DNA of 64,000 nt, from the NCBI GenBank assembly GCA_948567375.1, contig OX419757.1, positions 22,562,732 through 22,626,731 on the forward strand, given 5' to 3'. Shown one piece after another: positions 2,206 through 57,276 of the stretch. Source of the stretch: Lunularia cruciata. Taxonomy: Eukaryota; Streptophyta; Marchantiopsida; Lunulariales; Lunulariaceae. Position 1 is the first letter of the stretch, and each line of letters opens with the position of its first letter. A program made the position numbers and the translations under genes. The notes below the pieces were generated by a model. It worked only from the letters and a program-made list of their open reading frames with translations, did not search any database and had not been told where the DNA came from.

Positions 2206-5200
2206 TGTGGGACCCATATTTTAATCTTTTTCTCAATTTGGAAGAAGAAGTGTACAAAGAAGTCAAAGTGTGCCTGTATGGCCAAAGAAGGCAAAGAAAA
2301 GTGTCCTTGGGATGTAACCCAAGGTAATGTGTCTTTGGGTCATAAGGCGAGGTACTCGGAATTGCCCTATCAGCATATAACCCAAAGTAAGGAGTCTCTG
2401 TATCGGGGTGCTCAACCCGAGGCAAGGACAATGTAACAAGATTCCTTTGGGGCGAGACCTTCAAGAAGGTACCATTCAAAAACAGCAGTCATATGCATGA
2501 AGGACACTTGATAGTGACAAGAGCGTTTAGGGTGTGTGTGATTTCTTGGTAGAAACTTGAGTTGAAGAAAGATGGAGAAGGCATGACTCTTTAAAAATCG
2601 GGCTACAGACGAAGCAATGACGCACGAAGAATAGCTACAAAGTGGAGAGCTATAAGTGTCTTGTCAAGAGAGGGATCGTGAGTGCTCAAATGGCAATCTT
2701 GAAGCCGGAGAGAACAACTTATTTGATGAAGCACCAAGCGGTGTTCTTCCATAAGATGTTTGCAGGAGAGCCAATTAACTGGGCTAAGTGTCTTCATAGG
2801 AGGACAAGACAAATGGTGTGGAATTTGTGGGACAAGTCACCTCTACATTACATTGTGCCATTTGTAGCCCATTTCTATCTGGGGCTGAACTTGCTCAATG
2901 CGGCAGAGCAAAATAAGATGGTGTCTCATTTCCATCCCAACTTAAGAAGATGTCGATGCGAAGGAGCAGCAATACATTCTTCAGATCATGAGCAATGATG
3001 AGCACTACGCACAGACGGCGCAGAGGGTGCAGTTGGAAGTGAGCACTCCGAAGTCAAAGAAGAGGAGTCAACAAGGAGAAGAAGAAGTAGAGAAAGCGAG
3101 ACCTCAGAAGGCTAGAAGGGTAAACCCAAGAAAGAGCTGGTGGAAATCGTGTTGTTGGAAGAAGAGTTGGAAGGAGAAGTCAAGTGCAAGTCCAAAGACT
3201 CGGAGAGGGAGGAAGAACCCAAGTTCATACTGCAAAGTGGAGACACAAGTAGTGACAACAACGATGGAGTGGAGATGGAATCGGTACCCAAAGAAGAGGA
3301 AGCCAAGATATAGACGGAGGAAAAAGGTAACTCAAAACTAAAAGACAAAGTTCAAGAACAAGAGGAGAAAAGAGTTATAATTCAAAGGGAAGTTTGTTCC
3401 AAACAAAAGGCAAAGTATGGAGTGGGGCCGAGTAAGGTAAGAGAAGAGGAGGATAGAAGTTTGGGGAGCAAAGAATCCATTCCTATAAGGCAACTATGGC
3501 TTAGAAGGCGAGTGGCAAGTGAGGAAGAGGTGAAGAAGGAGACAAGTACGTGAGTCAAAATCAATGCGAGTGAAGGAGTAGAGTATCTGCGGGAGGTTGT
3601 GTGCCCTTTGTTGGTTAAGTTAGAGCACAAGAAGAAGGAGATGTTGTCAAAATGTCCAGAGGTGAAGATTGTATTGTAGGTGTTAGCTCAATTAGAAGAA
3701 GAGAACTCGGAGTTAAAGAAAAGTATAATCTGAGGTGAGGAGGAAAGGGAATTACTATGAGTAGACGCAGTAGTACAGATCAAGTGATCAAGAACTTGAA
3801 GAGAGAAGCAAGGAGTAGAGAGGGACTCATAGAGTAGAGTGACATAGCAAGGGAAAGGCAAGTAGCTGAGTATGAAATCTTGAAGAAACAGTTTGCTGAT
3901 TCGAGATTAGAAATTATCCATGCTAGGCAAGAGTAGCAGAGAAGGAGCAAGAGCTCGATAGAGTGATAGAGAGTGTAGAAGAGAAGAAGCAGCTCTAGCA
4001 AAGAGAGTTGACAATGAGATATTGAGAGGAAGAAACATTGAGAGAGTAACTTTGCAATCTAGAGGAGAAGATTATGCAAAAGGAGAAGCGGAAGGAGACT
4101 ATGAAAGTAGAGTTCAAAGTGGCATTGGCAATGTACAAAGAAGATTGGCTTGCAGATCAAGAACGGGAGAGAAGAATGAGATTGGAGCCATTGAAGGAGA
4201 TTGTGATCAAGATGAGTGCAATGCTAAGTGTAGAAGCCAGCGTGTGAATTCAAGAAATGAGACTGCATGAGTTGAAGTTGTTGGTGTAGGAGACGAGGAG
4301 GAGAAATGAAAAGGATAGAGGTTTCAATGCTTTACTTATCAGTCTCAAAACTGGTGTAGATAGAAAGATATTGGAAGTAGAAGACAATATCACAATTAAA
4401 TTAGACTTAGTGAAATTAGAGAAAGATGAACTTCGGAAGGATGTAAGAGCAAAACCCAAAGTAGATAGCATAGGAGTGCAAATGACTTCAGAGTTACCAT
4501 CGGAGATGTTAGGGAAGAGTGGGTTGGGAGATAAAGGATTAGAAGAATTACCCACTAGTGGAATTGTAGATTAGGAAAGAGAAATGATAGAATTGGTAGA
4601 AGATTTAGAAGTTGTGAAACCCGAGGACAAAGTAGTAAGTAAAGTTACTTTGAGATTGAAAGCCAAAAAAGAAGTAAACATTGGATTGGATTAGTTATAG
4701 ATTTTGAGATTTGAAGAGGTAAATATGAAGAGGTGCATTGTCATTTTGGATCTGCAAGTAGGAAGAGTTGTTAGGAAACGGTATAGTTGTTCAAACTGTC
4801 GTTTGCTTCACTATTTAAGAGTGGCATTTGTAGTCATATGTTGTTCAGTGCTCATAATTTCTGAGAATGGATAAAGCAAAGTGTTGTGAAGCAGTGCTTG
4901 TCATTTGAGCTTAATTCTGAGTATCAACTCTGTGTCTATGTTTGTGAGTGTTGGGAGAATTTTGAAGTGCAAGTCAGTGTGCTTGTTGGATATTGGATTC
5001 CGCATCCTTGATCTTCATTTTGTGTGTTTGATCCTGAGTGAAGTGCAATCAGAGCAATGCCTTGACAGATCTGAGAGGAATTGTAGTGTTGGTAGTATTC
5101 TACATTTGTGAGTGATGTGTAAAGGTGATGTGAAGCAATTTTGATCGAGGAAGTTGTGCCTTCAATAGAGAGGTAGAACACAATTGTGAGGCAAAGTTGT

Positions 5201-5468
5201 TTTGCAGTGAAGTGCCGTTTTCTGGAGAGCCTGAATCATCACAATCAAGATTGTTTGGAAAGATTTGATGGAGTTGTGATTAAGAATTGTTAACTTGTGA
5301 TAAGACTCTCTTCAAGGTGTAGTTCTATCTGAGAGATTAAAGAAGCAACCAAGAAGAACTACATTGTTATTATTTGCTTTGTATTTGGACATTTCTGACT
5401 TGTATCTCTACAAAAACAAACTTTATTTACCTGATTACCACAAAAGTGATATTTGCCAAGTTGTCACA
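2206..5468 (+). repeat. 5' LTR of element C (3263 bp)
   Basis: It starts TGTGGGACCC and ends GTTGTCACA, right before the primer site. It matches 11673-12370 at its start (about 90% by eye over the first 390 bp) and 22726-25669 over the rest. Compared with the D copy it lacks about 500 bp just after the LTR-ORF start codon, so D's 3799 bp is nearer the full length. It carries the remains of the LTR-ORF. Confidence 0.88.
2589..4694 (+). pseudogene. LTR-ORF remnant in C 5' LTR
   Basis: A weak TATA (TTTAAAAA, 2589) and ATG (2617) are followed by a deletion that joins the start to the middle of the first domain (KNGYKV-equivalent at about 2630). The domain then reads KPERTTYLMKHQAVFFHKMF, INWAKCLHRRTRQMVWN and LHYIVPF. 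After this come the charged region, the VEYLREVVCPLLVKLEHKKKE motif region (key: VCPLLVKL), the coiled coil and the C-terminal acidic end with a conserved stop at 4692-4694. Several frameshifts and stops. Function unknown; see the best copy in element D. Confidence 0.7.
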
Positions 5469-5475
5469 TGATTTT

Positions 5476-5493
5476 TGGTGCTGCTGCCGGAGA
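5476..5493 (+). other. Primer binding site of element C
   Basis: TGGTGCTGCTGCCGGAGA starts 8 bases after the LTR end. It is close to the tRNA-Asp complement TGGCGCCGTTGCCGGGGA used by many Athila-type elements. Copies in D and F diverge at different bases, consistent with decay from that ancestor. Confidence 0.65.
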
Positions 5494-5556
5494 TACAAAT
5501 CTTGGAAGTGGAAGAATACAAAGCCAATTTTAAAACTGGTTGTCAAAGCAATATGA

Positions 5557-7798
5557 ATGACTGCATTGAGAGAACAACGGGAAGAGAGAGTTTGAAGATG
5601 AACGTCGTATCGTGAAGAAGATGAATGCCTGAAGATCCAATCTACTTTTGACGAAACCGAACGGGAGGCATTGGACTTTCAACTTCTTCACAAAGTGCAA
5701 GAAGCACTGCAAGAACTTGACCAAAAGAAATGTGAAGGCGGTTGGCAAGGCTTCTTTGCATCCCCATCTTCAAGAAGATGAAAGACTCAAGCGGCCAAAC
5801 ATATTCGTTATGGCCTACAAACTTCCCCTAGAGTTGTAAAGGAAGTTGCATCTCTAAAGAACTTTGTCGAAGAAAAGACAACATGGACAGTGACGGAAGA
5901 AGAGTGTCAACACCTTCTACAAACTATTTGTTGATTATCTCAAAGGAATTTTGAAGAACACTCCAAAGGTGTTGAGCCTGATTCTTCCACTCGGGTTGAA
6001 GTCGACACCCTCAGAGGAGAAACTGTTGAAGAAGACCCTACTTTGAACTTTAAAAATTGGAACCCTTGGGCTATCAACATGGCGTCAATACCAGCCAGCT
6101 CTTTGGTCCCATCAAGTTCAAATTTACCCCAGCCGATCCCACCAAGTCAAATGATGAATTTGTTACCTATCACCCGACACGCCTATCAAAAATATAAGGG
6201 GACAGAACAAGACAAAGACCCCAATGAATTCATCAAAGAATTCAAAGTCATCTCCTTTGCCAACAAGGAACATGACTCGGCGGATTGACTGCGCATTTTC
6301 CCAAGTCTGCTTTGAAAGAACGCTCGGAGCTTGTATACCCATGTAACCTAGAAGAGGTTTGTATTGGCGGACTGCACAGACTTGAGAAACAATTTCTGGG
6401 AACAATTCAAGGAAGTTGATTACAACACAAGTGTCTTTGTGGCATTCAATGATTTGGATAGAGGTAAGAAGGAGAAGTTAAGAGACTACTCTAAGCGGTT
6501 CATGGTGCTTTTGAACCGAGTTCTGAAGCAATCGGGTGTGGTGGGTTACTCCAATGCCCAAGCCATCACCTGGTTCCTAGGAGGACTCTCACCATAGATT
6601 CAAATGTTTGCAAGGGAGAGGAGTGTAACTTCCCTCGACAAGGTACTCAAACATGTCACCGGCTATGAGGTGGCTCACTCTCACTCTGCTGGCAATCAAA
6701 GAAACCAAGAGAAGAAAGGCAAGAAGTCCAAAAAGAGAGCTTCTCGTAGTACATCCCCTTCTTTGGAGGAATCCTCCACGTCTTCAAGCTCTTCTTCAAA
6801 ATCCAAAGAAGAATCAAAGCCAAGTCAAGTACAAAGACGTGGAGGTAAGAAACCAATGACTCCCATAGCAAAGAGTGTACATAAGGTTGATACTAAGCTG
6901 GACGCCCTCATCAAGGAGTTTTTGGATTTTAAGATCCAAATGATTGGGGCAAAGGACCAAAGGAAGCCCCCATCATTTGGCAGATCCAATGTATGGTGCA
7001 CCACGTGTGGCAAGTCAGGCCTTGCAAACACGGAATGCAATACTTGCAATGTATTCCCATGGCAGCAGATTGATTGGGTTCCGGGATGGAACCAGGAAGA
7101 GGAAGAGGAGGCAGTGTACCAAACCCAAGAGGTACTGCCTCAAGCAAGCACATCATATCAAGGTCCGAGGTATGGACCAAGGGAGTATAACCCAATGCTC
7201 ATCCACAAAGACCACCAATGAGCAACCAAAATCAACCTCAAAATGTTGCACCCGGGGCATGTTATAATTGTGGCTCAATGGAACATTGGTCTCCTAACTC
7301 TCCGGAGCCAAGAAGGCAAATTGGGTATGTTCCCTTGTGCGGACATTGCAAAAGATCAGGTCATACGGGCAACCAATGCCCTCACCCACCAACCCAAAGC
7401 CGCCTACAAAGTATGTAGAGACCCCGGCTGAGCGTGCAACGCTTCAGGCAAAGGGTGATACAACTATAAAATGTATAACACTTGAGGAAGAGAGACCTCA
7501 AGAAGGGAGTCCGGCCTCGGAAGGAGAATGGCCGGACCTTGAAATTGTGAAGGTTGAGACACACACAAGTAAGAAGAAGCGTGATCTCCAAGAATTGAGT
7601 ACGACCTCGTCATCTTCAAGAAAAGCAAAGAGGCTACATCCAAAGGCAATCCTTTCTGCCAAGGAGGAAAAGATCCTTGTTAAAGCCAAAGCTAAAGCCT
7701 TGCAGAAAGAACTCAAGGAAGCAATACTCAGGACCCGGGAAATGAGTTTGGAGAAGAAGACAAAGACAAAGCCTTCAGTTTTTCCGGCAGACATCTGA
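5557..7798 (+). pseudogene. gag of element C
   Basis: The start ATG (MTALREQREER) is set by alignment with the better-preserved gag of D. The order is an N-terminal charged helix, a capsid-like retrotrans-gag region (about 6160-6680; WxTHVTxKxF, VDYNTSVFxAxNDLD, LRDYSKxFMxLLN and the AQAITWFLxGL motif), a Ser/Lys-rich linker and zinc knuckles. The first knuckle-like motif is CTTCGKSGLANTEC with its His changed to Leu. The second is degraded (last Cys to Ser). The third, CGHCKRSGHTGNQC (about 7336-7377), is an intact CX2CX4HX4C. A Lys-rich tail follows. In-frame stops lie near 5600, 6286, 6316 and 6596, and a frameshift near 7200. It would have formed the particle shell and bound RNA. Confidence 0.8.
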
Positions 7799-8036
7799 TC
7801 CACAGTGAAGGGTCTGATTCAAGCCGAGGTGGACCAACCCAAGGAACCTTGGGTCAAGCCCACTAGTACTCCTATCACCATTAATATCTAGTCCTAATAC
7901 CGAAATAAAAATTCTATATTTTTATTTTTATGAAGCATCTTGAAGTCAAATTTGAACATGGAGAGACTTCAAACCCAAAGTCGAAGGCAAAGACGGTGAA
8001 ATTAGGGGAGTACTCCAATACAATATTGTAGCCAAT

Positions 8037-8663
8037 TTGGCAGCCATAAATGCAAACATCACATTTAAGCAATTGTGGCAAGACAACAAGTTGTACAAGA
8101 GGCAGCTGAATTTGGCCCTCAAGAAAGTAAGGTTGATGTCCAAGAAAGACCTGCCCGCCATATATCATATTGAACAAGAAGATCTGGGATATCTTGAGGT
8201 TGATGTAGAGATTGCAGGGTGCATGTTCACATCAACACCCATTGATTTGGATTCCGGTGTGAATGTCATGATCAAAGATTCTGCAAATTGACTAGGGTAT
8301 CATACATTTGAACCAACACCCCGAGTATTGAAATTTGCAGACCAAACCAGGAGACGGCCATTGGACATGCTGTCAAATATTACCACAATCATTGGAGGGG
8401 TGCCCTTAAAGTTGAATTACATTGTGTTGCAACCAGTGACCAAAACTGGTTACCCATTGTTGATCGGAAGACCTTGGTTGTATAGTGCCCAAGTTGTGGT
8501 GGATTGGCACCAGCAAAAGCTACGGTTCAAGGACATTTTGTCCGAAGACCAAAAGTTGGTGATTGTGAGTTGGACAAAGGTCCCCCATCTTGGGGAAACT
8601 AGTTCGTTAGAAGACAAGGATCAATCCAAAGACTCATTGTCTTTGTCCTCAGATGAATCCTAA
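8037..8663 (+). pseudogene. Aspartic protease region of element C
   Basis: One frame with a single stop at 8289. The active-site region reads PIDLDSGVNVM (about 8237-8269), which keeps an Asp-Ser-Gly, although the family usually has an alanine or hydrophobic residue after it. The second half has LKFADQTRR and the flap/ILGRP-type end as LLIGRPWLYSA. This is the pattern of retropepsins in Athila/Tat-like gypsy elements. It would release the gag and pol proteins. It lies between gag and RT, as expected. Confidence 0.7.
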
Positions 8664-8684
8664 GACAAAGTCCAAGTCAATTAC

Positions 8685-9795
8685 TTGGAATGCTATGGGG
8701 TGGATGTCAAAGACAAAGATCCATATGACCTCGCCTCGGGTGAACCTGACTTGGAGGAAGGGGGTTTGATGGCAGCTCACCACGGATTAAGCCGAGTAAG
8801 CCACGTTGAAGGAGTCATCAACCCCGATGACTATCAAGATGTTGTCTTGACTGAAGGGAAAATTTTGAAAATTTTGAAGACAGTCACTTTGGAGGAGTTG
8901 GCAGGATACACTGCCCTGTTTATAGAATTCTAGGATGTATTTTTCTGGTCTATCAATCAAATGCCGGGTATTCTACAAGAATTTGGAGAACATCTGATTG
9001 ATCTGGTTGAAGGTGCAGTTCCGGTTTGGCAAAGACAGTACCGCCTGAACCCAAAGTACTCTCTCTTGGTGAAAGACAAAATCAAGAAGTACTTAGGAGC
9101 CAAAATAATCTTTCTTGTCTTAAGCAGTGAGTGGGTCTCCCCCATTGTCATTGTCCCGGAGAAGAAAACAAGGAAGATCCAAGTGTGCCAAGATTTCCGC
9201 AAGTTGAATGCAGTCACAAGGAAGGATCATCATCCCTTGCCTTTTATTGATACAATTTTGGACCAAGTAGCTGGTCATCCTTGTTATAGTTTTCTCCATG
9301 AATTTTCAGGATACAATCAAGTGTCCATCCAAGAAGAGGACAAGGATAAGACCACATTCACGACCTATTGGGGTCACTTTTTCTTACAATCAAATGCCCT
9401 TTGGGTTGTGTAATGCTCTTGCTACTTTCCAGCGGATGATGAATTCAATCTTCAAGGATTTCTTGCAGAAATTTGTGGAAGTTTTCATTGATGATTTTTG
9501 TGTGTTTGGGCAAAGAGATGTACATTTGGATTACCTTTGCCAAACTTTTGAAAGGTGTTGTTTTGCCGGTTTGTCATTACACCCAGAGAAATGCTTCTTT
9601 TCAATGAAGGAGGGAATTCTTCTAAGGCATCGGGTGTCAAGCCAAGGTATTGAAGTTGATGTCAAGAAGGTCAAAGTAATCTCAGCTTTGGAATCCCCGA
9701 AGAACATCCGAGAGCTGAGAGCCTTCTTGGGACATGTTGGATACGCTTTGTTTCCAACTATGTGGTGCTTGTTGCACTCCTTACAAAGCTTCTGA
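8685..9795 (+). pseudogene. Reverse transcriptase of element C
   Basis: It runs in the protease frame to about 9390, with stops at 8661 and 8931, then shifts frame. Recognisable blocks are YRLNPKYSLLVKDKI, SEWVSPIVIVPEKK, CQDFRKLNAVT, PLPFIDTILDQVAGH, FSGYNQVSI (catalytic Asp region changed to Glu), QMPFGLCNALATFQ and the catalytic FIDDF (about 9487-9501), then LSLHPEKC and LRAFLGHVGY. The box order is that of Ty3/gypsy RT. One frameshift near 9390 and at least two stops inactivate it. Confidence 0.88.
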
Positions 9796-10240
9796 AGAAA
9801 TCCAAAGACTACCTATGGGAAGCAAATCAAGAAGAAGCTTTCCAAGTATTGAAGGAGAAACTGGTTGAAGCACCAATCATGAGGGCCCCAAATTAGGACA
9901 TCCCTTTTCATGTATATGTGGACACTTTGTCCATAGCAATCGGAGTTGTCTTAAGTCAGAAGGATGAGAAGAAGAAGGACTATCGGGTTTATTATGCAAG
10001 CTGACAACTTTCAATTTCCAAAAATAACTATTCAATGACTAAAAGAAAAGCACTCGGAATGGTGTATGCCTGCAAGAAATTTTGCCACTACTTGTTGGGA
10101 TACGAGTTCATCTTCTATGTTGACCATTACGCATTGCAACATTTGGTCAAGAAGGCAGATTTGTCTGGGCAAATTGCAAGATGGATCTTGTGGTAACAAG
10201 AATTCACATATACTATACAAGTACAGAAGGGGGCTTCACA
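9796..10240 (+). pseudogene. RNase H of element C
   Basis: It continues from RT. It has FHVYVDTLSIAIGVVLSQ with the first catalytic Asp, a TKRKALGMVYACKKFCHYLLGY stretch (key: ALGMVYACKKF; the catalytic Glu is Lys here) and VDHYALQHL for the third acidic site. Stops occur near 9895, 10003 and 10193. It would remove the RNA strand during DNA synthesis. Confidence 0.78.
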
Positions 10241-10241
10241 T

Positions 10242-11661
10242 TTGAATGCACACTTCCTGTCCAGTTTAGAAACTCAAGACCAGGAATGGGAAATAGACGA
10301 TTGGTTCCTTGATGAAGAGTTATATCAATTTACAGCAATGCGAAGTACAAGGTATGCAGCCAAATATCATTATCAACATACTCTCCATTGTCCTGAAAGG
10401 CTGGACTCGGAGCAGAGGGCAGTCTTTCTCAAGAAAATGGGGCCGTATAAGCTAAAACACAACATTTTATTCAAGATGGGCAAAGACAAAGTACGTCGGC
10501 AATGCTTGGAGTCATATGAAGTCGGAGGTGTAATTGAGTCTTTACACTCCAAAGCATCGGGGGGACATTATGCTTGGGGGGACACTAAAGAATAGACTCT
10601 TTCTTCTTCAGTGTACTAGTGGCCTAAAATATACAAAGACATGCATGCCCATATCTGAAGCTGTGACGCTTGTTAGAGAACAGGGAAGCCGATGGCTACT
10701 TCTCAATACCCTTTTAGACCAATTTTACCCTTCGCGCCATTTGAGAAATGAGGAATTGATTTTGTGGGTCCCATTCAACCAATGACCTGAGTCATGAAGA
10801 AGATATACATCTTGGTATGCACTAACTATGCTACCAAGATGGTTGAAGCTGAAGCAACTCATAGAGATGATGCAAAAACCGTTGTGGAATTTTTATTTCG
10901 AAACATCATCTCTCAATACGGATGTCCTTTGGAATTGGTCAGTGATAGAGGGACACATTTCTTGAAATTTGTGATGGAGGCGATAACAAAATACTTCCAG
11001 ATTAAACATCGGAAGACAACTCCTTATAACCCAAAACCAAATGGCTTAACGGAAAAGGCAAATGGGTTACCTTGCAAAATTTTGAATAAGATGACTGTCA
11101 ATTATCCTTATAACTGGCATAGAAAATTACCAGCCGCACTGTGGGTATATCAAATGATAGAAAAGATTACAACCAAAAAAACTCCATACTTCTTGATATA
11201 CGGCTTGCATCCCATACTACTAGTTGAATTTGAAGTACCCACATATCGGATTCTTTTGCAAAGAACAATTGTCAAAGGAAGAAAGCTAGGATCTTTGGAT
11301 TCATCAACTGATGTGGTTAGAAGAGAAAAGAGATGATGCATTGCAAACCACAAAAGAAGTACAAGAGCAAAGGAAAGTTAGGCATAATAAGCACATCAAG
11401 CATGTGATTGTTTGCAAAGAAGATTTGGTTTTGTTATACGAGAATTGCCAAATATTTTTTCAAGGCAAGCTACATTTGAGATGGATGGGGCCTTATCAGG
11501 TTCTTCATCTTCATGAAAATGGGTCCATTCAACTTGCAAACCTGGAAGGCAATCCTTTTGCCACTCAAGTAAACGGGTGGAGATTTTGGAGATATTGGAC
11601 CATAGACTCGAAAGTCTCTAAGACATCCAAAGTCTATGTTTGCGGGGATGCTCACATTTGA
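10242..11661 (+). pseudogene. Integrase of element C
   Basis: The zinc-binding part is damaged (ASGGHYA, CDAC remnants near 10560-10660). The catalytic core shows the first Asp in CTNYATKMVEAEATHRDD (10827-10880), the second in VSDRGTHF (10940-10965) and the Glu in PNGLTEKANG (11037-11065), so D,D,E is present. The C-terminal part shows KEDLVLLYEN and LRWMGPYQVL (about 11420-11520), then VNGW. A frameshift lies near 11320. The frame ends 11 bp before the LTR and there is no chromodomain. Confidence 0.85.
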
Positions 11662-11672
11662 GAGAAGGGGTA
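11658..11672 (+). other. Polypurine tract of element C
   Basis: TTGAGAGAAGGGGTA lies directly before TGTGGTACC. The matching site in element F is at 35067-35082. Confidence 0.7.
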
Positions 11673-12056
11673 TGTGGTACCTAAATTTTTGTTTTTTTTC
11701 TCAATTTGGAAGAAGAAGTGTACAAAGAAGTCAAATTGCACTTATATGGCCAAAGAAGGCAAAGAAAAGTGTCTTCAGGATGTAACCCAAGGTAACCTGA
11801 CTTTGGGTCATAAGGCAAGGTACTCGGAATTGCCCTATCAGCATACAACCCAAAGTAAGGAGTCTTTGTATCGAGGGTGCTCAACCCGAGGCAAGGACAT
11901 TGTAACAACTTTCCTTCGGGGCGAGACCTTCAAGAAGGTACTGTTCAAAAAAGGCGGTCATATGCATGAAGGACACTTGACAATGATAGGAGCATGTAGA
12001 AGGTGTGATTTCTTGGTAGAAACTCAAATTGAAGAAAGACAGAGAAGGTGCAACTC

Positions 12057-12064
12057 TATAAAAA
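12057..12064 (+). promoter_or_regulatory. TATA box of C 3' LTR
   Basis: TATAAAAA lies 27 bp before the LTR-ORF ATG. The same spacing is found in D (27 bp). Spacing is 33-34 bp in F (36154), J (56100) and K (57270). Confidence 0.65.
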
Positions 12065-12083
12065 TTGGGCTAAAGACAAAGTG

Positions 12084-12368
12084 ATGACAAGCAATTTCCC
12101 ATCGCTGTTAAGAAGTCATCCTATAGGAAATTGTGGGAAGGGAAGTGTAGTTGAAGACGCGCTGGTGTGTCGAGAGGAAGTCGAGAGAGTTAATCCAGGA
12201 ATTAGTAGGAAGAATCGTCCCCAACCCAGAGTGGAAGAGAGAAAGATGGGAGGTGGGAAGAAGAACTCCAAATTTGCAGTGAGAAATCATGCAATTTGGA
12301 GGTTAGATGTGATCGCAAGAATTGAGGTCTTGAGCAAGCTTTGGATCACATTCTTGGCATGGAACTAG
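12084..12368 (+). pseudogene. Start of LTR-ORF in C 3' LTR
   Basis: The best view of the N-terminus: 94 open codons from ATG, beginning MTSNFPSLLRSHP. This matches MLSNFPSPLRS in D, MSSRFPIPLSS in K, MSRKYPKPLSS in J and MSCKYPKPLSS in F. It then reads MGGGKKNSKFAVRNHAIWRL and ends at a TAG where D has Trp (LAWN then stop). That stop is a one-base TGG to TAG change, just before the nested insertion. Confidence 0.75.
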
Positions 12369-12370
12369 AA

Positions 12371-12863
12371 TGTTGTAATACTTTGAGGACAAGAGAAGAG
12401 AGAGAAACAAAAATTACGCACTCAACATTTGGTGCCTCAAAGGAGCACCTTCCTTTTATTATATAGACAAAGAGGATCTCCTCCAAGGAAGCTCCTCCAT
12501 AGGACTAGGCACACATATAGGTGACATGTCATCAAGATCCACCCTTGGATTACTAACTTGGATGGGTGACATGTTGGTCTAGGTCCTATCTGGTTGGTCA
12601 AACAAGCTTTGACCGGAGGGAATCTTTTGAAGAATCTTCTTGTAGGAGTTTCAGAATCACATGAGTAAGGTACCATTGGAAACCTCTCGATGAGACAAAG
12701 CAAGGAAGAGGGAAGGCCAGCCTTTACTCTATTGGGGTGGCTTATTCATTTTTTAGGCCTAATTCATCCGTTTAGGTCTTTGAAATTGCCTTCAAAGATT
12801 TCAGGCATATTTCGGTTCCTACTCTATTAGTAGAAGTCCCCTATTGGTAATACCTCTTTCCGC
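12371..12863 (-). repeat. Unassigned LTR-like fragment
   Basis: This 493-bp piece lies between the broken 3' LTR of C and the truncated gag of D. Read on the minus strand it has a TATA-like CTATATAATAAAAGG (about 12456-12470), a short inverted repeat around GGTGC/GCACC, and ends in ATTACAACA at the junction with C, as an LTR should. I find no matching start next to D, so the other end may have been lost. No protein match seen. It could instead be non-LTR filler DNA. Confidence 0.35.
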
Positions 12864-14654
12864 ACAAGGGAACATACCCAATTTGCCTTCTTGGCTCCGG
12901 ACAGTTTGTAGACCAATGTCCTATCAAGCCACAATTGTAACAGGCTCCGTGTGCAACATTTTAAGGATGATTCTGGTTGCTCATCGGTGGTCTTTGTGGA
13001 GGAGCATTGGGGTTATACTCCCTTGGTCCAAACCTCGGACCTTGGTACAATGTGCTAGCCTGAGGCTGTACCTCTTGTGTTTGGTACATAGCCTCTTCTT
13101 CCTCATCTTGGCTCCATCCTGGAACCCAATCAATTTGCTACACCGAGAATGCATTACAAGTATTGCATTCCGTGTTTGCATGGCCTGACTTCCCACATGC
13201 GGTGCACCATACATTTGATCTTCCAAATGTTGGGGCCTTACTTCTGTCTTTGGCCCCAATCATCTAGATTTTAAAATCTGAAAACTCCTTGATGAGGGCA
13301 ACTAGCTTGGTATCTGCCTTATTTACACTCTTTGCTGGAGGAGTCAATGGTTTCTTACCCTTATGTCTTCTTACTTGTCTTGGCTTTGATTCTTCTTTGG
13401 ATTCCAAAGAAGAGCTCAAAGACGTGGAGGGTTCTTCCAAAGAGGGGGAAGTGCTATGCAAAGCTCTCCTTCTGGGCTTCTTGCCTTTCTTCTCCCAATT
13501 TCTCTGGTTGCCAGCAGAGTGAGAGTGTGTTGCCTCATAACGAGCGACATGTTTGAGTACTTTGTCAAGGGAAGTTACATTCCTCTCCCTTGCAAAGATT
13601 TGGATCTCTAGTGAAAGTCCCTTGAGGAACCAAGTAATGGCTTGGGCATCGGAGTAACCCACCACCCCCGATTGCTTGGGAACTCGGTTCAAGAGTGCCA
13701 TGAACCACTTAGAGTAGTCTCTCAACTTCTCCTTCTTGCCTTGGTCTAATCGTTGAGTGCCGCAAAGACACTCGTGTTGTAATCAACCTCCCAAAATTGT
13801 TTTAGGAAGTTGTTTCTCAAGTCGGCCCAATCCGCTAGTACGAACCCCTTCTGTGTCACATGGGTGTACCAACGCCAAGCTTTCTTTTGGAGTAGACTTG
13901 GGAAAATTCTTAGTCGATCCGCCGAGTCATGCTCCTTGTTAGCAAAGGAGATGACTTCAAATTCTTCAATAAATTCATTGGGGTCTTCGTCTTGTTCTGT
14001 TCCCTTGTACTTTTGATAGGCATGTTGGGTGACAGGCAACAAAGTCATTGTTTGATGCATTGGAATCGGCTGAGGTAATGTTGAACTTGACGGAATTGAG
14101 AGATTGGCTGGTATTGACGTCGTGTTGTCAGCCTAGGGGTTCCAATTTGTCAAATTCAAGGTGGGGTCTTCTTTGACAATTTCTGCTATGAGGATGTTGA
14201 CTTCAACCCAAGTGGAAGATTCAGGATCAACACCTCCGATTTGTTCTTCAAAATTCCTTCGGGACAACCGAGGAATCGTTCGTAGAAAATGTTGACACTC
14301 TTCTTCCGTAAGTGTTTGTGTTGTTTTTTCTTGAACAAATTTCTTTAAGGATGCGACTTCCTTTACAACTCTAGGGGAAGTCAGTGTACTGGGCTGCAAT
14401 GCATATGTTTGGCCATTCAAGTATTTCTTCTTCTTGGACGAAGAGGGAGATGCAAAGTAGCCTTGCCAACCACCTTCTCGTTTCTTGTGGTCAAGTTCTC
14501 GCAGGGTTTCTTGCACTTCGTGAAGGAGTTGAAAATCCAACGCCTCTCGTTCGGTTTTGTCAACAGTGAATGGGATGTTCAAACGTTTGTCTTCTTCACA
14601 CTGCAATGCTTGTCTTTGAGCTCTCTCTTCACGTTGTTCTCTTGATGCAGACAT
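12864..14654 (-). pseudogene. gag of element D
   Basis: The ATG at 14654 opens 173 clean codons (MSASREQREERAQRQ), followed by a stop (TGG to TAG) and further long open runs. It has VTQHAYQKYKGTEQDEDP, AWRWYTHVTQKGF, VDYNTSVFAALND, AITWFLKGLSLEIQ and a Ser-rich linker. The first zinc knuckle CTACGKSGHANTEC (about 13207-13166) is intact. The second, CYNCGLIGHWSTNC, is also intact. It is truncated just after that. It shows a frameshift near 13745. It would be the structural particle protein. It serves as the reference for the gag copies in C and F. Confidence 0.8.
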
Positions 14655-14717
14655 TCAAATTGCGTTGATACCTAGTTTTGAATTTGGCTTCATATTTTTC
14701 CACTTCCAAGATTTGTA

Positions 14718-14735
14718 TCCCTGGCAACGGCACCA
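14718..14735 (-). other. Primer binding site of element D
   Basis: Minus strand TGGTGCCGTTGCCAGGGA, 8 bases inside the LTR end. It differs at only two bases from the tRNA-Asp complement TGGCGCCGTTGCCGGGGA and is the best of the three copies. Confidence 0.72.
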
Positions 14736-15537
14736 AAAACTCATGTGACAACCTGGCAAATATCACTTTTGCGGTAATCAGGTAAGTAAAGTTCGTTCCC
14801 ACAGAGATACTAGTTAGAAATTTCCAAATACAAAGTCAAACAGTAACAATGTAGTTCTTCTTGGTTGCGTCTTTAATCTCTCAGGTAGAAACCACACCCA
14901 GAAGAGAGTAACAAGCACTGACTCGCAGTCTTGTCACAAAGTAACACTCCTTAATCACAACTCCATCAAATCTTTCCAAACAATCTTGATTGTGATGATT
15001 CAAGCTCTCCCAAAAATAGCACTTCACTGCAAAATGACTTTGCCTCAGAATTGTGTTCCATCCTTCCACTGAAGGCACAACTTCCTTGATCAAAATTGCT
15101 TCACGTCAACTTCACACTACACTCACAAATGCAAAATACTACCAACACTACAATTCCTCTCAGATCTGTCAAGGCATTGCTTTGATTGCACTTCACTCAG
15201 GATCAAACACACAGAATGAAGATCAAGGCTGCAAAATCCAACATCCAACAAACACACTGACTTGCACTTCAAATTTCTCCAAACACTCACAAACATAGAC
15301 ACAAAGTTGATACTCGGAATCAAGCTCAAGCGACGAGCACTGCTTCACAATACTTTGCTTTATCTATTCTCAAAATTATGAGCACTGGACAACATGATAT
15401 TGCAAATGCCACTCTTAAATAGTGAAGCAATCAACAGTTCTAACAACTATACCGCTCTACAACAACTCTTCTAACCTGCAGATCCGAAATAACAATGCAC
15501 CTCTTCATATATGCCTCTTCAAATCTCAAAACTGTTA

Positions 15538-18116
15538 CTAATCCGATCCAATTTCTACTTTGTCATCGGCTTTCAAACCCAAACCCAAAGTAACTTTACT
15601 TCCTACTGCTCTGTCTTTGGGTTTCACAACTTCTAATTCTTCTACCAAATTCAACAATTCTCTTTCTTGATCTGAAATTCCACTAGTGGGTAATCTATCT
15701 AACTCCTTATCTCTTGACCCACTCTTCTCTAATGTCTCTATCGCTAAGTCCAAATTCATCTATACTCCTACTTAGTCTACTTCGGGTTTTGCTCTTACAT
15801 CCTTCCAACGTTTGTCTATCTCCAACTTTACTAAGTCTAATCTAATTGCGATATTATCTTCTACTTCTAATATGTTCCTATCTACACGAGTTCGTAGACT
15901 GATCAACAAGGCATTTAAATCTGTGTCTTTTGCCTGTCTTTGCCTTGTCTCCTGCACCAACAACTTCAACTCGTGCAGCCTCGTCTCTTCAATCCGAAAG
16001 CTGGCCTCTGTACTTAGCATTGTGTTCATCTTGAGGACAATCTCCTTCAATGGCTCCAATCACATCTTTCTTTCTCGCTCCCAATCTGCAAGCCAATCCT
16101 CTCTATACATTGCCAATTCCGCTTTGAACTCAACTTTCATCGTTTCTTTCTCCTTCTCCTTCTGTTCAATCTTCTTCTCATGATTACGAAGTAACTCTCG
16201 TAATCTATCTTCTTGCTTATATCTTACTGCCAACTCCCTTTGCCAGAGTTGCTTCTTCTCTTCTACGCTCTCCATCACTCTATCGAGCTCTTGTTCCTTT
16301 GTTGCTACCCTCACCATAGCATGGATAAGTTCTAATCTTGAATCATCAAACTGCTGCTTGAAAATCTCGTACTTTGCTACTTGTCTCTCCCTCGCTATGT
16401 CACTCTTCTTAACAAGTTCCTCTCGATACATCACTTCTCTCTTCAAGTTTTCAATTACTTGCTTCTTCACTGCTGCCTCTTCTCGTAGTACTTCCCTTTC
16501 CTCCTCACCTCGGGTTATAATCTTCTTCAACTCCGAGTTCTCTTCTTCTAATCTTGATAACACCTGCAAGACAATCTTCACCTCTAGACAAGTTGACTGC
16601 ATCTCCTTCTTCCTGTGCTCCAATTTCACCAACAATGGACACATGACCTCCCGCAGGTACTCCACTCCATCACTTGCAACTACCTCCTCCTTCATAGCAA
16701 TCTCCCTTCTCACTTCTTGTTTTCCTGATACTCGCCTTCGTCTCTGCATTCTTTGTATTGGAATCGACACCTCACTTCCCGAGCTAGCATTCACTTCTTC
16801 CTTCACCTTACTCAGACTTGCTTCACCCTTCGCCTTGTGCCTTGAACAAACTCCCCTCTGAAGTGCGACCTTCTTCTCTTTGGGCTCAGGTATCTCGTCC
16901 TCCAACTTTGTGTTGTCCTCTGGCTTGAGCTCTACCTGAACTTCTTCTTCTTCCTCCTCCACAGTAGCTGGTACCGACATCATTTCTCCACCTTCATCGT
17001 TGTCACTACTCGTATCCCCACTTTGCAGCGTTAGCTCTAGTTCTTCCTTGCGTTCCGAGTCGTTGGACTTGCACTCGGCTTCACCTTCCGAGTCTTTGTC
17101 TTCTGATGTGATCACCACCATGCCTCTCCTCGAGTTTCCTCTCTTGGTCTTCCGAGATCTTGTCTTGTCTTCAGCTTTGCCCTATCAACTTCACTTCTTT
17201 GACTTTGGAGTACTTGCTTCTATCTCTACGTTCTTCCCTATCTTTGCATAGTACTCATCCGTGCTCCGGATTTGAAGGATATACTGCTGCTCCTCTACGT
17301 CAACTTCTCTTCTCAAGTCGAGATAGAAGTGCAACACCATTTGATTTTGCTCCGCCGAGTTGAGCAAATTTAACCCGAGGTAAAAATGTGCTGCAAACGG
17401 CATGATATAATGTGGAGGCGACTTATCCCGCAGATTCCACACCATTTGTTGCATCCTTCCATGGAAGCACCTCGCCCAATTGATTGGTTCTCCTACAAAT
17501 AGTTTGTGAAAGAACACTGATTGGTGTTTCATCACATACGTTGTTCTCTCCGGCTTTAGGATTGCCATGAGAGCACTCACAATCCCTCTCTTCACTGGAT
17601 CCTTGTAACTCTTGACCTTGTATCCGTTCTTTGTTCTCTTCAAAGAAAAAGCGTCCCTCACTTCTTGAGTTTCTTCTGCTAGTTCTCCCTTACCCAAGAA
17701 GGTGGCACCCTGCTCCGTGCCTACTTCTCTCCAGAGCACAAATCTCCAATCTGACTCGGTCCAGCAAGCCAGATTTCCTCTCATCCCTTCTTCCTTGGGG
17801 CCATCGAGACACTTGCTCTTGATAATCTCAGTCATGAAACCTAGAAAACAAACATTCCAATTCCATGCCAAGAACGTAATCCAAAGTCGGCTCAAGACTT
17901 CGATTCTTGTGATTACGTCTAGCCTCCGAATCGCATGATTCCTCACTGCAAATTCGGAGTTCTTCTTTCCTCCTCCCATCTCTTCTGCTTCTCATTGTCT
18001 CTTGGTTTCACTCTCTTGACTTCTCTCTTACACACTAGCGCATCTTCAACTTTATTTCCCTTCCTATGATCACCTGCAGGACAACTTCTCAACGGCGAAG
18101 GAAAATTGCTCAACAT
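15538..18116 (-). pseudogene. LTR-ORF, best copy: globular domain plus coiled-coil protein
   Basis: About 860 codons from ATG 18116. One frameshift lies between 18116 and 17979; from 17979 to 15538 everything is one frame (814 codons) with stops only near 17191, 16060 and 15770. Residues about 45-310 form a domain I do not recognise (RLDVITRIEVL, LWITFLAWNWN, ESDWRFVLWRE, NGYKVKSY, TYVMKHQSVFFHKLF, PINWARCF, HYIMPFAAHFYLGLNLL). A charged, Ser/Glu-rich linker follows, then VEYLREVMCPLLVKL. Next comes about 250 residues of heptad-like Glu/Lys/Leu coiled coil including REDWLADWERER, then LHELKLLVQET. The C-terminus is acidic and ends DKVEIGSD. No signal peptide or membrane segment. The function is unknown; the coiled coil suggests self-assembly (inference). 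Confidence 0.75.
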
Positions 18117-18135
18117 TGCTTCGTTGTGAGCCCAA

Positions 18136-18143
18136 TTTTTATA
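18136..18143 (-). promoter_or_regulatory. TATA box of D LTR
   Basis: Minus strand TATAAAAA within CTCTATAAAAATTGGG, 27 bp before the LTR-ORF start. Transcripts starting the usual 25-35 bp downstream would begin at or beside the ATG. Confidence 0.65.
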
Positions 18144-18405
18144 GAGTCGCGCTTTCTTCGTCTCTCTTCAATTTGAGTTTCTAACAAGGAATCACACCTC
18201 TTGCATGCGCTTGTCACTGTCAATCATACTTCACGCGTATGGGCCGCCGGTTTTGAACGCTCCCTTCTTGAATTTCTCACCCTGAAAAAAGGTTGTTAGA
18301 CTATCTTTGCCTTGGGTTGAGCTCCCCCCGATATGAAGACTCCTTACTTTGGGTTGTATGCTGACAAGGCATTTTTGAGTACTTATGAAATATGTTCACC
18401 TTATG

Positions 18406-18429
18406 ACCCAAAGTCACTTTACTTTGGGT
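18406..18429. promoter_or_regulatory. Inverted repeat in U3 of D LTR
   Basis: ACCCAAAGT, six bases, then ACTTTGGGT: a perfect 9-bp inverted repeat. The ACCCAAAGTAA motif recurs one to three times in the U3 of C, F, I and J. It could be a transcription-factor site; this is inferred from repetition only. Confidence 0.45.
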
Positions 18430-18542
18430 TTCATCCCGAAGACTCTTTTCTTTGCCTTCTTGGTCATATAGGCGCAATTCGACTTCTCTATACACTTCTT
18501 CTCCTATATTTTGAACAAAAACAAAAAAATGTAGGCACCACA

Positions 18543-22725: not shown

Positions 22726-25669
22726 TTGGTGTCACGTTCTTGGAGAAGGGAGAAGTAGCTGAAGAAACCCAAGAAGTGATAGATGTCTTCTCTTCAATGC
22801 GCACAAAGAATGGCTACAAAATAGAGAGCTATAAGGATCCTATCAAGAGAGGGATTGTGAGTGCTCTAATGGAAATCTTGAAGCCGGAGAGAATGACTTA
22901 TGTGATGAAGCACCAAGCGATGTTCTTCCATAAGATGTTTGCAAGAGTGCCAATTAACTGGGCAAAGTGTCTTCATAGGAGGACAAGACAGATGGTGTGG
23001 AATATGTGGGACAATTCACCTCTACATTACATTGTACCATTTGCAGCCCATTTATATCTGGGGCTGAACTTGCTCAATGTGGCGGAGCAAAATAAGATGG
23101 TGTCCCATTTCCATCCCGACTTAAGAAGAGATGTCAATGAGGAGGAGCAGCAATACATTCTTCAGATCAAGAGTAGTGATGAGTACTATGCATAGATGGG
23201 GCAGAGTGTGCAGTTGGAAGTGAGCACTCTAAAGTCAAAGAAGAGGAATCAATGAGGAGAAGAAGAAGTAGAGAAAGAAAGACATCGGAAGGCTAGAAGG
23301 GTAAAACCGAGGAAAGAGCTGGTGGTAATCACGTCGTCGGAAGAAGAGTCGGAAGGAGAAGCCGAGTGCAAGTCCAAAGACTCGGAGAGGGAGGAAGAAC
23401 CTGAGTTCACGCTGCAAAGTGGAGACACAAGTAGTGATAGCAATGATGGAGTGGAGATGAAATCAGTACGCAAAGAAGAGGAAGCCAATATGGAGATGGG
23501 GGAGAAAGGTAAATTGAAACTAAAAGATGAAGTTCTAGAACAAGAGGAGAAAAGAGTTACAATTCAAAGGAGAGTTTGTTCTAGAAAAAAGGCAAAGTAT
23601 AGAGCGTGGCCAAGTAAGGTAAGAGAAGAGGTGCATGGAAGTTCTGGGAGCAAAGAATCCATTCCTATAAGGCGACTACGGCTTAGAAGGCAAGTGTTGA
23701 GTGAGGAAGAGGTGAAGAAGGAGACAAGTCCGTGAGTCAAAATGCATGCAAGTGAAGGAGTAGAGTATCTGCGGGAGGTTGTGTGCCCGTTGTTGGTGAA
23801 GTTAGAGCACCAGAAGAAGGAGATGCAGTCAAACTGTCCAAAGGTGAAGACTATATTGCAAGTGTTAGCTTGATTAGAAGAAGAGAACTTGGAGTTAAAG
23901 AAGAGTATAATCCAAGGTGAGGAGGAAAGGGAAGTACTACGAGTAGACACAATAGTACAAAATCAAGTGATCAAGAACTTGAAGAGCAAAGTGAGGAGAA
24001 GAGAGGAACTCATAGAGCAGAGTGACATAGGGAAAGGCAAGTAGCTGAGTATGAAATCTTGAAGCAGTAGTTTGTTGATTCGAGATTAGAAATTATCCAT
24101 GCTATGGCAAGAGAAGCAGAGAGGGAGCAATAGCTTGATAGAGTGATGGAGAGTGTAGAAGAGAAGAAGCAGCTCTAGAAAAGAGAGTTGATAGTGAGAT
24201 ATCGAGAGGAAGAAACGTTGAGAGAGTTACTTTGCAATCTGGAGGAGAAGATTATGCAAAAGGAGACGGAGAAGGAGATTGTGAAAGCTGAGTTTGAAGC
24301 AGAATTGGCAATGTACAGAGAAGATTGGCTTGCAGATCAAGAACGGGAGAGAAGAATGAGATTGGAGCAATGTAAGGAGATTGTGATCAAGATGAATGCA
24401 ATGTTGAGTACAGAAGCCAGCGTGCAAATTGAAGAAACAAGAGAGCATGAGTTGAAGTTGTTGGTGTAGGAGACAAGGAGGAGAAATGCAAAGGATAAAG
24501 GTTTGAATGCTTTACTTATCAATCTCACAACTTGTGTAGATAGAAAGATATTGGAAGTAGAAGACAATATTACAATTAGATTAGACTTAGTGAAATTAGA
24601 GATAGATAAACTTTAGAAGGATGTAAGAGCAAAACCCGAAGGAGATAACACAGGAGTGCAGATGACTTTGGAGTTACCATTGGAGATGTTAGAGAAGAGT
24701 GGGTTGGGAGATAAAGGATTAGAAGGATTACCCACTAGTGGAATTGCAGATCATGAAAGAAAATTGTTAGAATTGGTAGAAGATTTAGAAGTTGTGAAAC
24801 CCGAGGACAGAGTTGTGAGTGAAGTTACTTCAAGATTGAAAGCCGAGGAAGAAGTAGACATCGGATCGGATTAGTAATAGATTTTGAAATTTGAAGAGGC
24901 AGATATGAAGAGATGCATTGTCATTTTGGATCTACAGGTTGGAAGAGTTGTTAGGAAACGGTATAGTTGTTAGAACGGTCGTTTGCTTCACTATTTAAGA
25001 GTGGCATTCGCACTCATATGTTGTTCAGTGCTCATAATTTCTAAGAATGGATAAAGCAAAGTGTTGTGAAGCAGTGCTTGTCGTTTGAGCTTAATTCCAA
25101 GTATCAACTTTGTGTCTATGTTTGTGAGTGTTGGGAGAATTTTGAATTGCAAGTCAGTGTGCTTGTTGGATGTTGGATTCTACAGCCTTGATCTTCATTC
25201 TTTGTGTTTGATCTTGAGTGAAGTGCAATCGGAGCAATGCCTTGACAGATCTGAGAGGAATTGTAGTGTTGGTAGTATTCTGCATTTGTGAGTGTAGCAT
25301 GAAGTTGATGTGAAGCAATTTTGATTGAAGAAGTTGTGCCTTCAGTGGAGAGGTCAAACATAATTCTGAGGCAAAGTCATTTTGTAGTGAAGTGCCATTT
25401 TTGGGAGAGCTTGAATCATCACAATCAAGATTGTTTGGAAATATTTGATGGAGTTGTGATTAAGAAGTGTGAATTTGTGATAAGACTATGAGTCAGTGCT
25501 TGTTACTCTCTTCTGGGTATAGTTTCTACCTAAGAGATTAAAGACGCAACCAAGAAGAACTACATTGTTATTATTTGCTTTGTATTTGGACAATTTTGAC
25601 TCGTATCTCTTCGGGAACAAACTTTACTTATGTGATTACCACAAAAGTGATATTTGCCAGGTTGTCACA
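22726..25669 (+). repeat. 3' LTR of element C, second part, with LTR-ORF remnant
   Basis: It matches C's 5' LTR from about 2630 to 5468 and ends GTTGTCACA at 25669. GAGAG follows, which closes the target duplication of C. The LTR-ORF can be followed from about 22740 to its conserved stop at 24874. It is open for long runs (VPINWAKCLHRRTRQMVWN, HYIVPFAAHLYLGLNLL, REDWLADQERERR, LHELKLLV) between stops and frameshifts. Confidence 0.85.
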
Positions 25670-27182
25670 GAGAGTTAGCTACATAGAATTTGGAAGAAGA
25701 GAAATTGTGTGGTTTAGTCAAAGGAATAGATGTGCAACTCGGTCAGAGTGTAAAGGAGAAGGACCCTTTGAGTGCCAAGTTGGAAGATGAAGTAAAGATG
25801 TATCGTGAGGAATTGTTAGCAAAGAAAGAGAAGTTGCAAATGCCAAGGTAGGGGACAACTGACAAAGTAGTGGTGAGAGTGAAAGCAATGCTTGGAAGAA
25901 TGTCTGAGTGTCAATTGGAGGAATTGAGATTGCACAAGTTGAAGTTGTGAAGTTGTTGGTGCAAGAGACGAGGAAGAAATAAGAAAAAGACATCAAGTTG
26001 AATAAATTATTGATTTGCTTAAGAGATCAAGTAAATAGAAAGATGTTAGAAGTAGGAGACAATGTGTATCTCAAATTAGATTTAGTACATTCAGAGTTAG
26101 AGAGACTGCAGAGTAGTGTGAAGGGAGATAAGAAGTAGCAGATAAAGTAGCAAACATAGGAGTGCAAGTGTCTTTAGATCAGTTATTTGAGATAGTAGAG
26201 AGGAATGGGTCAGAAGATAAAGACATAGATAGCTTACCCATGGTATTAGTTACAAAAAGTAGTGAAGAAGTAATAGAATTGCTAGAAGGTGTAGAAGAAG
26301 AAGATAGACCCGAAGAAGGAGAAGTGATAGGAGGAACCTTGTGTTTGGAAGCCAAAGTCTAGGTAGACATCGGACCGGATTAGTAAACAATTTTGAGATT
26401 TGAAGAGGTAGATATGAAGAGGTGCATTGTCATTTTAGATCTGTAGGTTGGTAAAGTATTTGTAGAACTATATGTTAGTTAGAGCATTGTTGGAGGTGCT
26501 CAACCTATTTAAATGAGGCATTCACAATGTTCAATATTCATAATTTCTTGTTTCTTGAACATGTTGTTCAATGTTCATAATTTCTGAAGATACATAAAGC
26601 AATGTGCTGAGTTTAGTGCTTGTCACTTGAGCTTAATTCCAAGTATCAAGTTTGTGTGTGTATTTGTGAGTGTGTGGAGAATTTCAAAGTGAAAATCAGT
26701 GTGCTTGTTGGATTTTAGATTCTGTAGCCTTGATCTTCATTTTGTGTGTTTGATCTTGAGTGGAGTGCAATTGAGGCCATGCCTTGACAAATCTACAAGG
26801 AATTGTTGTGTTGGTAGTATTCTGCATTTGTGAGTGCAGGATAAGTTTGATGTGAAGCAATTTTGATCGAGAAAGTTGTGCCTTCAATGGAGGGGTGGAA
26901 CACAATTTTGAGGTGAAGTTGTTTTATAATGAAGTAGCAGTCTTTGGGAAAATCTGAATCATCACAATCAAGATTTTTTTGGATAGAATTTGATGAGATT
27001 GTGAGTCAATGCTTGTTACTCTACTTTGGGTGTAGTTTCTACCAAAGAGATTAAAGACAAAATCACAAAGAACTACACTGTTATTGTCTGTTTTGTATTT
27101 AACCATTTTTTACTCATACCTCTATGGGAACAAATTTTTAATTGCTGATTACCGCAAAAGTGATACTTGTTGGGTTGTCACA
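25670..27182 (+). repeat. 5' LTR of element F, second fragment
   Basis: It resumes F's LTR with GAGAGTTAGCT, exactly where 2205 left off. It runs through the coiled-coil end of the LTR-ORF (conserved stop at 26381-26383) and the conserved noncoding tail to GGTTGTCACA. A primer site follows at once. Confidence 0.85.
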
Positions 27183-35082: not shown

Positions 35083-35090
35083 TATGGTAC

Positions 35091-35780: not shown

Positions 35781-36153
35781 TTGTACCCACTTTTTTTTGT
35801 TTTATTTTGAAGAAAAAGTGTACAAAAAAAGTCATATTGAACCCAAATGGCATTGAAAGAAGAAGAATTGTGTCTTTGACTTGCAACCCAAAGTAAAGTG
35901 ACTTTGTGTCAAAACCAAAGTACTCAAATCAGACTTGGCCAGAGAAACCCAAAGTAAGAAAACTTTACCCCAAGGTGATCAACCCATGTAAAGATGACAA
36001 TACAACTTTCCTTTGGATTTTTCAATCAAGAAAGGACAGGTAAGAAAAGGCTAAGGTGCAAAAGACTAAATCTTGACAACACCATGATGAGCTCATGCAG
36101 AAGGTGTGAGCTTGAGTGAAGACTAATAGAAGATTGACCAATCAGTAAAGCAC

Positions 36154-36160
36154 TATAAAA
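36154..36160 (+). promoter_or_regulatory. TATA box of F 3' LTR
   Basis: TATAAAA, 34 bp before the LTR-ORF ATG at 36188. Confidence 0.6.
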
Positions 36161-36187
36161 TCAAAACTTCATTGAGGGGATTTTGAA

Positions 36188-57269: not shown

Positions 57270-57276
57270 TATAAAA
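57270..57276 (+). promoter_or_regulatory. TATA box of LTR K
   Basis: TATAAAA, 34 bp before the LTR-ORF ATG at 57304. Confidence 0.6.

Follow-up and report, generated by a model that had tools for sequence, protein, structure and literature searches.

A protein-coding frame of about 860 codons, kept by purifying selection, inside the long terminal repeats of Ty3/gypsy-type retrotransposons in Lunularia cruciata

Here we show that a long terminal repeat (LTR) in the genome of Lunularia cruciata (Marchantiopsida) holds a sense-orientation frame of about 860 codons. The LTR occupies positions 14744-18542 of a 64,000-nucleotide stretch of DNA (assembly GCA_948567375.1, contig OX419757.1, 22,562,732 to 22,626,731 of the forward strand; hereafter the window) and belongs to a truncated minus-strand retrotransposon, element D. 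The window also contains the related copies A5, A3, B, C5, C3, E, F, F2 and G and the fragments Z, J and H, where 5 and 3 denote the 5' and 3' LTRs of elements A and C. The conclusion that the frame was under protein-level purifying selection while these elements were active is well supported. The best overall explanation, which we regard as probable but by no means secure, is that they are Ty3/gypsy plant retrotransposons in which the unique 3' (U3) region has been enlarged to ~3.1 kb by a sense accessory gene of ~860 codons.

In D, the body of the frame runs without a frameshift from an inner ATG at 17979 to a stop at 15540-15538, and is interrupted by stops at codons 263, 265, 266, 640, 736 and 740. 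Over this length there are 81 and 39 stops in the other two sense frames, and 37, 15 and 27 in the antisense frames. Because six stops or fewer were found in none of 1,000 dinucleotide shuffles, even in the best of six frames (mean 24.0, minimum 13), the D frame is not a product of chance; its longest open stretch is 373 codons, compared with at most 368 in the shuffles. An initial annotation of the window had given the limits of the LTR exactly and had described a frame of about 860 codons, which agrees with the 859 obtained from a 46-codon start and an 813-codon body. It had also named the start motif M-[STL]-x-x-[FY]-P, which lies ~46-60 codons upstream of the inner ATG in D, A3, G, C3 and F2; the motif shares the reading frame of the body in A3 but not in D.

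The same order of motifs recurs in diverged LTRs, as had been proposed: a tblastn search with the D frame recovers it in A, B, C3, F and G, and finds only pieces in Z, A3, C5, E, J and H. D carries LWITFLAWNWN and LHELKLLVQET, with the variants SDWRFVLW (for SDWRLVLG) and MCPLLV (for VCPLLV). G carries SDWRLVLG, NGYKVESY and LHELKLLVQET, with LCITFLAWNWN as a variant of the first motif of D. NGYKVESY is also present in F, VCPLLV in A, B and H, and the variant VCPLLL in C3. Several copies have a DIGSD-like end, and close variants of YVMKHQAVFFHQMF occur as well. Over aligned stretches, the predicted proteins of C3, F and G are ~27-52% alike to that of D.

Substitution patterns point consistently to selection on the protein. 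The ratio of non-synonymous to synonymous divergence (dN/dS, or omega in codon models) was 0.20 for D and A (674 shared codon columns) and 0.18 for D and B (727), compared with 0.64 for the closer pair A and B. Among the 38 of 66 possible pairs that share at least 60 codons, pN/pS was below 1 in every case (codon columns with a stop skipped), with a bootstrap upper bound below 1 in 33; the remaining five all involve the short copy E. In a codon model of A, B and D, omega was 0.94 on the A and B tips, where fixing it at 1 costs 0.08 log-likelihood units (lnL), and 0.138 on the D side, where doing so costs 90.6 lnL (2dlnL ~181). This very strong rejection applies to the whole D side and not to either of its branches singly: in a four-copy model the stem of A and B had an omega of 0.16, at a cost of 2.6 lnL when fixed at 1, and fixing D alone cost 7.9 lnL. 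A six-copy model gave 0.117 on internal and 0.40 on terminal branches (likelihood-ratio statistic 25.8); since its branches are long and partly saturated, the main weight is placed on A, B and D. The three-, four- and six-copy models retained 651, 720 and 781 of the 813 codon columns, respectively. Copies Z, A3, C5, E, J and H were excluded from the models, and F2 entered only the alignments of the N-terminal extension and the LTR start. The codon-level alignment for which the initial annotation had called reveals purifying selection, and values near 1 on internal branches, which it had named as contrary evidence, did not occur. The near-neutral A and B tips indicate that, once inserted, copies decay like any dead insertion.

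Controls in other frames and in adjacent DNA behaved differently from the coding frame. For the same columns of the D side, the +1 and +2 frames gave omega values of 1.93 and 2.06, and the non-coding LTR end gave 1.00, 0.54 (2dlnL 3.2) and 1.06 in its three frames. Mismatches between D and A at the three codon positions were 0.187, 0.160 and 0.355 within the frame and 0.112, 0.120 and 0.105 after it. Off the A and B tips, constraint was strongest in the N-terminal domain (omega 0.09), followed by the coiled coil (0.15) and the linker (0.21). Insertions and deletions were not clearly frame-keeping, with multiples of three making up 9/21 between D and A, 6/15 between D and B and 1/11 between D and G (3' part only), which may be expected if many of them post-date insertion.

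Several structural observations show that the frame lies within the LTR proper and not beside it: LTR D is followed by a site resembling a primer binding site (PBS), the 3' LTR of A with the start of the frame comes after pol and a polypurine tract (PPT), and both LTRs of C contain parts of the frame. In A, the final internal frame stops a few codons short of the LTR, at GAGAGAAGGGG, and the LTR start TGTGGTACC adjoins it. LTR D is bounded by TGTGGTGCCTAC...CAGGTTGTCACA (TGTGG...CACA; also written TGTGGTGCC...TTGTCACA). The exact terminal motif differs from copy to copy, and D opens with TGTGGTGCC and not with TGTGGTACCC, the start given in the initial annotation. Paired LTRs with TG...CA ends, PBS-like and PPT-like sites, and reverse transcriptase (RT) ahead of integrase (RVT_1 at 8.9-9.8 kb and rve at 10.8-11.3 kb in A) identify the elements as Ty3/gypsy LTR retrotransposons. 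The two LTRs of A are 86.4% alike over 418 columns, and D and A are 79% alike across LTR, leader and gag; the Ty3_capsid match in D (E = 5e-4) is below Pfam's cut-off. Variants of the PBS-like site of D, which we take to be a tRNA-Asp site, occur in A and C5, and A may belong to the Athila-like (OTA) lineage.

Within the LTR, the frame appears to lie in U3, because it is followed by a TATA-like box and by 0.68 kb of LTR end that is widely shared. The box, CTTCACTATTTAAGAGTGGCATTTGC (also written as the TATTTAAG box), stands ~114 bases past the frame, and A5, B, D, E and G match it with no more than two mismatches. The LTR end of D is 89.4% identical to that of A, 90.9% to B, 88.9% to E and 84.9% to G, and the close pair A and B reaches 90.9%. 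Synonymous divergence (dS) of the frame is ~1.05 between D and A and ~2.5, near saturation, between D and G, and gag of A and D is intermediate (0.51 and 0.65 in two stretches). Scaled to neutral change, the branch to D has a length of ~3.0 per codon for the frame and of 0.18-0.29 for the LTR end, and the low divergence of the LTR end lends support to a frame in U3. Since the LTR ends are almost equally alike despite the high dS of the frame, as strand transfer would produce, the data suggest that the repeat and unique 5' (R-U5) part was swapped among co-packaged RNAs as the gene-bearing U3 diverged.

From this arrangement a possible origin can be outlined. In an ancestor, the gene would have stood between pol and the 3' LTR, a common place of extra genes in plant elements; the PPT may then have shifted, or a new PPT come into use, upstream of the gene, and reverse transcription would have carried the gene into U3, and thereby into each LTR. 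Transcription of the genomic RNA would begin in the 5' LTR, from the TATA-like box that follows the frame, and the copy expressed would be the 3'-terminal one, on a full-length or subgenomic RNA, in the manner of sag of mouse mammary tumour virus (MMTV) or lentiviral nef. Under this scheme the promoter lies past the frame, so that the gene of a solo LTR would not be transcribed from it. A splice acceptor ahead of the frame was sought by eye in the LTR-start alignment, where a plausible site in D is not kept in the other copies.

The predicted protein consists, according to composition and models, of an N-terminal domain, a basic and then acidic linker, a long coiled coil and an acidic end, with no clear membrane segment. 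The N-terminal domain has 23 invariant columns among six copies; Pfam returned no family for any of the six alignment members at E up to 10, and a sequence search of PDB gave no match for this domain, either singly or as an alignment. For the linker and coiled-coil part, Pfam returned only TetR_C_15 at 0.39, below the cut-off. The charged linker was modelled as structureless, with low confidence. An AlphaFold2 model of segment 16063-17181 (373 residues, of which 172 had a predicted local distance difference test score, pLDDT, of at least 90) predicts a single helix over residues 166-372 of that segment, and hydrophobicity with helical period was significant at residues 441-640 (p=0.017) and not in four other stretches tested. 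The best 19-residue hydropathy was 0.44-1.55 in six of seven copies and 1.81 in C3, the only copy above 1.6, and four of the seven copies examined (A, B, D and G) have basic clusters at residues ~259-285. These features lead us to prefer, tentatively, a nuclear and dimerising accessory factor to a protein of the envelope type, and our guess, from composition, is that it may aid expression of the element or shield it from silencing.

A number of observations weigh against these interpretations or soften them. The copies in this window are broken, the C-terminal 113 residues are weakly constrained (omega 0.42), and the N-terminal extension gives a weak signal, with pN/pS of 0.49-0.85 in 10/10 pairs (45-58 codons). 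Protein-level placement of codons can lower dN in distant pairs, an effect to which D versus A and B (77-79% DNA identity) is least exposed. On the side of the protein, an AlphaFold model of the N-terminal domain from three sequences was unusable (pLDDT 33.4), so that function rests on composition, and no clear basic cluster is seen where C3, F and Z are aligned. With regard to the promoter and R-U5, the downstream box is poorly kept in C3 and C5 (TTTAAA core only), and the C LTR end is less like the others (81.6% for D and C3, 80.7% for D and C5, 87.2% for C5 and C3); likeness of the LTR ends could instead reflect strong constraint. Finally, a second TATA-like box (TATAAAA) before the gene, present in six of seven aligned copies, fits a separate promoter.

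This upstream box underlies two rival readings of expression. TATAAAA stands 27-34 nt ahead of the upstream ATG in D, A3, G, C3 and F2 (all but D counted by eye), with the inner ATG ~46-60 codons further on in D, A3, G and C3, and could be a promoter of the gene itself. The gene would then be self-contained, with its messenger RNA driven from any LTR, whether 5', 3' or solo, and the second box driving genomic RNA. With a start ~30 nt past the TATA box, however, there would be hardly any leader ahead of the upstream ATG, and the 5' copy needs no expression if the 3' copy is expressed, and we consider this reading possible but rather improbable. It is less likely still that genomic RNA itself starts from TATAAAA, with the frame as its first gene and R of ~3 kb. 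The position of the box and the precedent of Retrosat2, for which an additional ORF (open reading frame) ahead of gag-pol is described (PMC3485330), would agree with it; the block of low divergence begins near the second box and not the first, though, and some special device would be required for gag-pol to be translated downstream of an 860-codon frame.

Readings that deny the elements a gene of their own fare worse. A neutral passenger, an old open frame copied along with the LTR and devoid of function, would account for the broken copies and for the omega of 0.94 on the A and B tips, but it conflicts with the low D-side omega, the pairwise pN/pS values with their bootstrap bounds and the controls in shifted frames; it is refuted unless these tests are artefactual, and we give it almost no credence. 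The other case raised in the initial annotation, capture of a host gene fragment by one recent ancestor, is very unlikely and found no point in its favour, since the frame is common to copies as far from D as C3, F and G, and no match appeared among the scored candidates of a set of 5.8 billion proteins that includes those of plants. In that set, neither the D frame (7,992 candidates sharing most words) nor the N-terminal alignment (3,018 candidates) had a match at E up to 1, in a search that relies on shared five-residue words and from which distant relatives can escape. Plant elements are represented in the set: among the best 120 of 200 protein matches to the RT of A, the top named one came from Marchantia polymorpha (70% across 60% of the query), followed by angiosperms at ~50-55%, but no relative of the frame was recovered. 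Four pieces of the frame had no credible match in NCBIfam, scans of viral and prokaryote contigs gave pattern matches with no relative confirmed, and Rfam had no match within the window.

The accessory genes sag of MMTV and nef of lentiviruses lie in, or reach into, U3; they are present in both LTRs, and the 3' copy is the one expected to be expressed. If the present element is a Ty3/gypsy retrotransposon that bears an accessory gene in U3, as on sequence grounds is probable, with appreciable doubt, it would share with them the placement and its duplication in both LTRs; theirs are vertebrate retroviruses with far smaller proteins, and here a plant element carries ~860 codons. The parts of the plant literature used for the following comparisons describe several partial parallels. 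Additional ORFs (aORF/eORF) of unknown function lie in the internal region of plant LTR retrotransposons, after pol or before gag (PMC7264820); the present gene sits at the usual site of such extra 3' genes, but in A it follows the PPT, which places it inside the LTR and not between the LTRs. In centromeric elements of CRM group A, coding sequence also reaches into the 3' LTR, but only as the end of the gag-pol polyprotein (CR motif), in contrast to the whole separate gene found here (PMC3059260). Rice Retrosat2 likewise combines LTRs of >3.2 kb with an extra ORF, ORF0, which lies upstream of the gag-pol ORF and which the consulted portion of the text does not place in the LTR (PMC3485330). 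Gymny of Pinus, a gymnosperm element related to Athila for which a portion of the putative LTR is known, is by its description a possible relative (PMC2633040), and the survey of Neumann and others reports extra ORFs and LTRs of up to ~5 kb (PMC6317226). No description of a whole gene inside plant LTRs was recognised in the open-access literature searched, mostly through titles and the beginnings of abstracts and with subscription journals mostly outside its scope.

If confirmed, the arrangement would be a plant counterpart to the U3-borne accessory genes of complex retroviruses, would account for the great length of some plant LTRs, and would predict many remnants of a selected protein among the "non-coding" LTRs of genomes. 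In addition, recombination between retrotransposon RNAs could be read from genome sequence alone, by comparing the frame, with its heavy synonymous change, with the LTR end that is so widely shared. A bolder proposal, which we advance tentatively and think improbable as a whole, is that of a mobile two-module LTR, in which a selected U3 regulatory gene, perhaps with its own promoter, moves and diversifies apart from a widely shared R-U5 exchanged among subfamilies by strand transfer between co-packaged RNAs. Unlike accessory genes would then share one packaging and promoter end, and each solo LTR might be expressed as a one-gene locus with trans effects on the family.

Table 1. Coordinates in the window of LTR D, its frame and predicted signals, and of the related elements and copies
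Feature	Position	Strand	Basis or remark
LTR of element D (5' LTR of minus-strand element)	14744..18542	-	3,799 bp; PBS-like site 8 nt downstream
PBS-like site TGGTGCCGTTGCCAGGGA	14718..14735	-	Sequence; 8 nt past LTR D
Leader and gag part of element D (truncated)	12859..14743	-	Ty3_capsid match, likeness to A
Body of LTR-borne frame, 813 codons from inner ATG	15541..17979	-	Six in-frame stops; ends GAT-TAG
N-terminal extension from upstream ATG (M-L-S-N-F-P...)	17979..18116	-	Other frame than body in D; in frame in A3
Stop-free stretch with conserved N-terminal domain, 262 codons	17194..17979	-	Omega 0.09 off A/B tips for residues 1-245
Predicted long alpha helix (coiled-coil-like), 207 residues	16066..16686	-	AlphaFold2 single-sequence model
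TATA-like box after frame, CTTCACTATTTAAGAGTGGCATTTGC	15402..15427	-	24-26 of 26 bases kept in 5 copies
Widely shared LTR end, putative R-U5	14744..15424	-	0.68 kb; alignment positions 3128-3808
TATAAAA before upstream ATG, possible second promoter	18137..18143	-	27 nt spacing in D
5' LTR of element A	2206..5468	+	Frame from residue 115 on, without N-terminal part
Internal region of A	5469..11672	+	gag, protease-like, RT, RNase H, integrase, then PPT-like tract
PPT-like GAGAGAAGGGG of A	11660-11670	+	Directly before 3' LTR
3' LTR of A (A3)	11673..12374	+	Cut at ~codon 46 of 813-codon body; entire N-terminal extension in frame
LTR copy B	22728..25669	+	Frame residues 79-813, one frameshift
5' LTR remnant of element C (C5)	25659..27182	+	82.5% to C 3' LTR over 1,559 columns
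3' LTR of element C (C3) with frame	35783..39256	+	tblastn, LTR pairing
LTR copy E (3' part)	41377..42421	+	Sequence comparison
LTR copy F	54041..55704	+	Frame residues 58-604; cut by another LTR start (F2) at ~55717
LTR copy G	56891..60625	+	Start approximate, by eye
Fragment Z	1123-1958		Sequence comparison
Fragment J	47411-47709		Sequence comparison
Fragment H	60691-62681		Sequence comparison

Among the other copies, G retains the frame from an upstream ATG at 57304 to nearly its end, with stops and frameshifts. An LTR-like repeat of 0.6-0.7 kb, which starts on its own strand with TGTAACACCCATTTGTGC, occurs four times in the window (437-1126, 18543-19154, 35087-35787 and 47711-48307; 93-96% alike), and LTR D is apparently inserted in one of these copies, as two others extend ~80 bases further. 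A purine tract ahead of LTR D was considered as a PPT and rejected, being part of another repeat. A tandem array of ~100-bp units lies inside the internal region of C (28875-29534), and another gypsy element, on the minus strand at 48308-53948, has end repeats of 426 bp that are 95% alike and a long protease-RT frame at 51105-52319.

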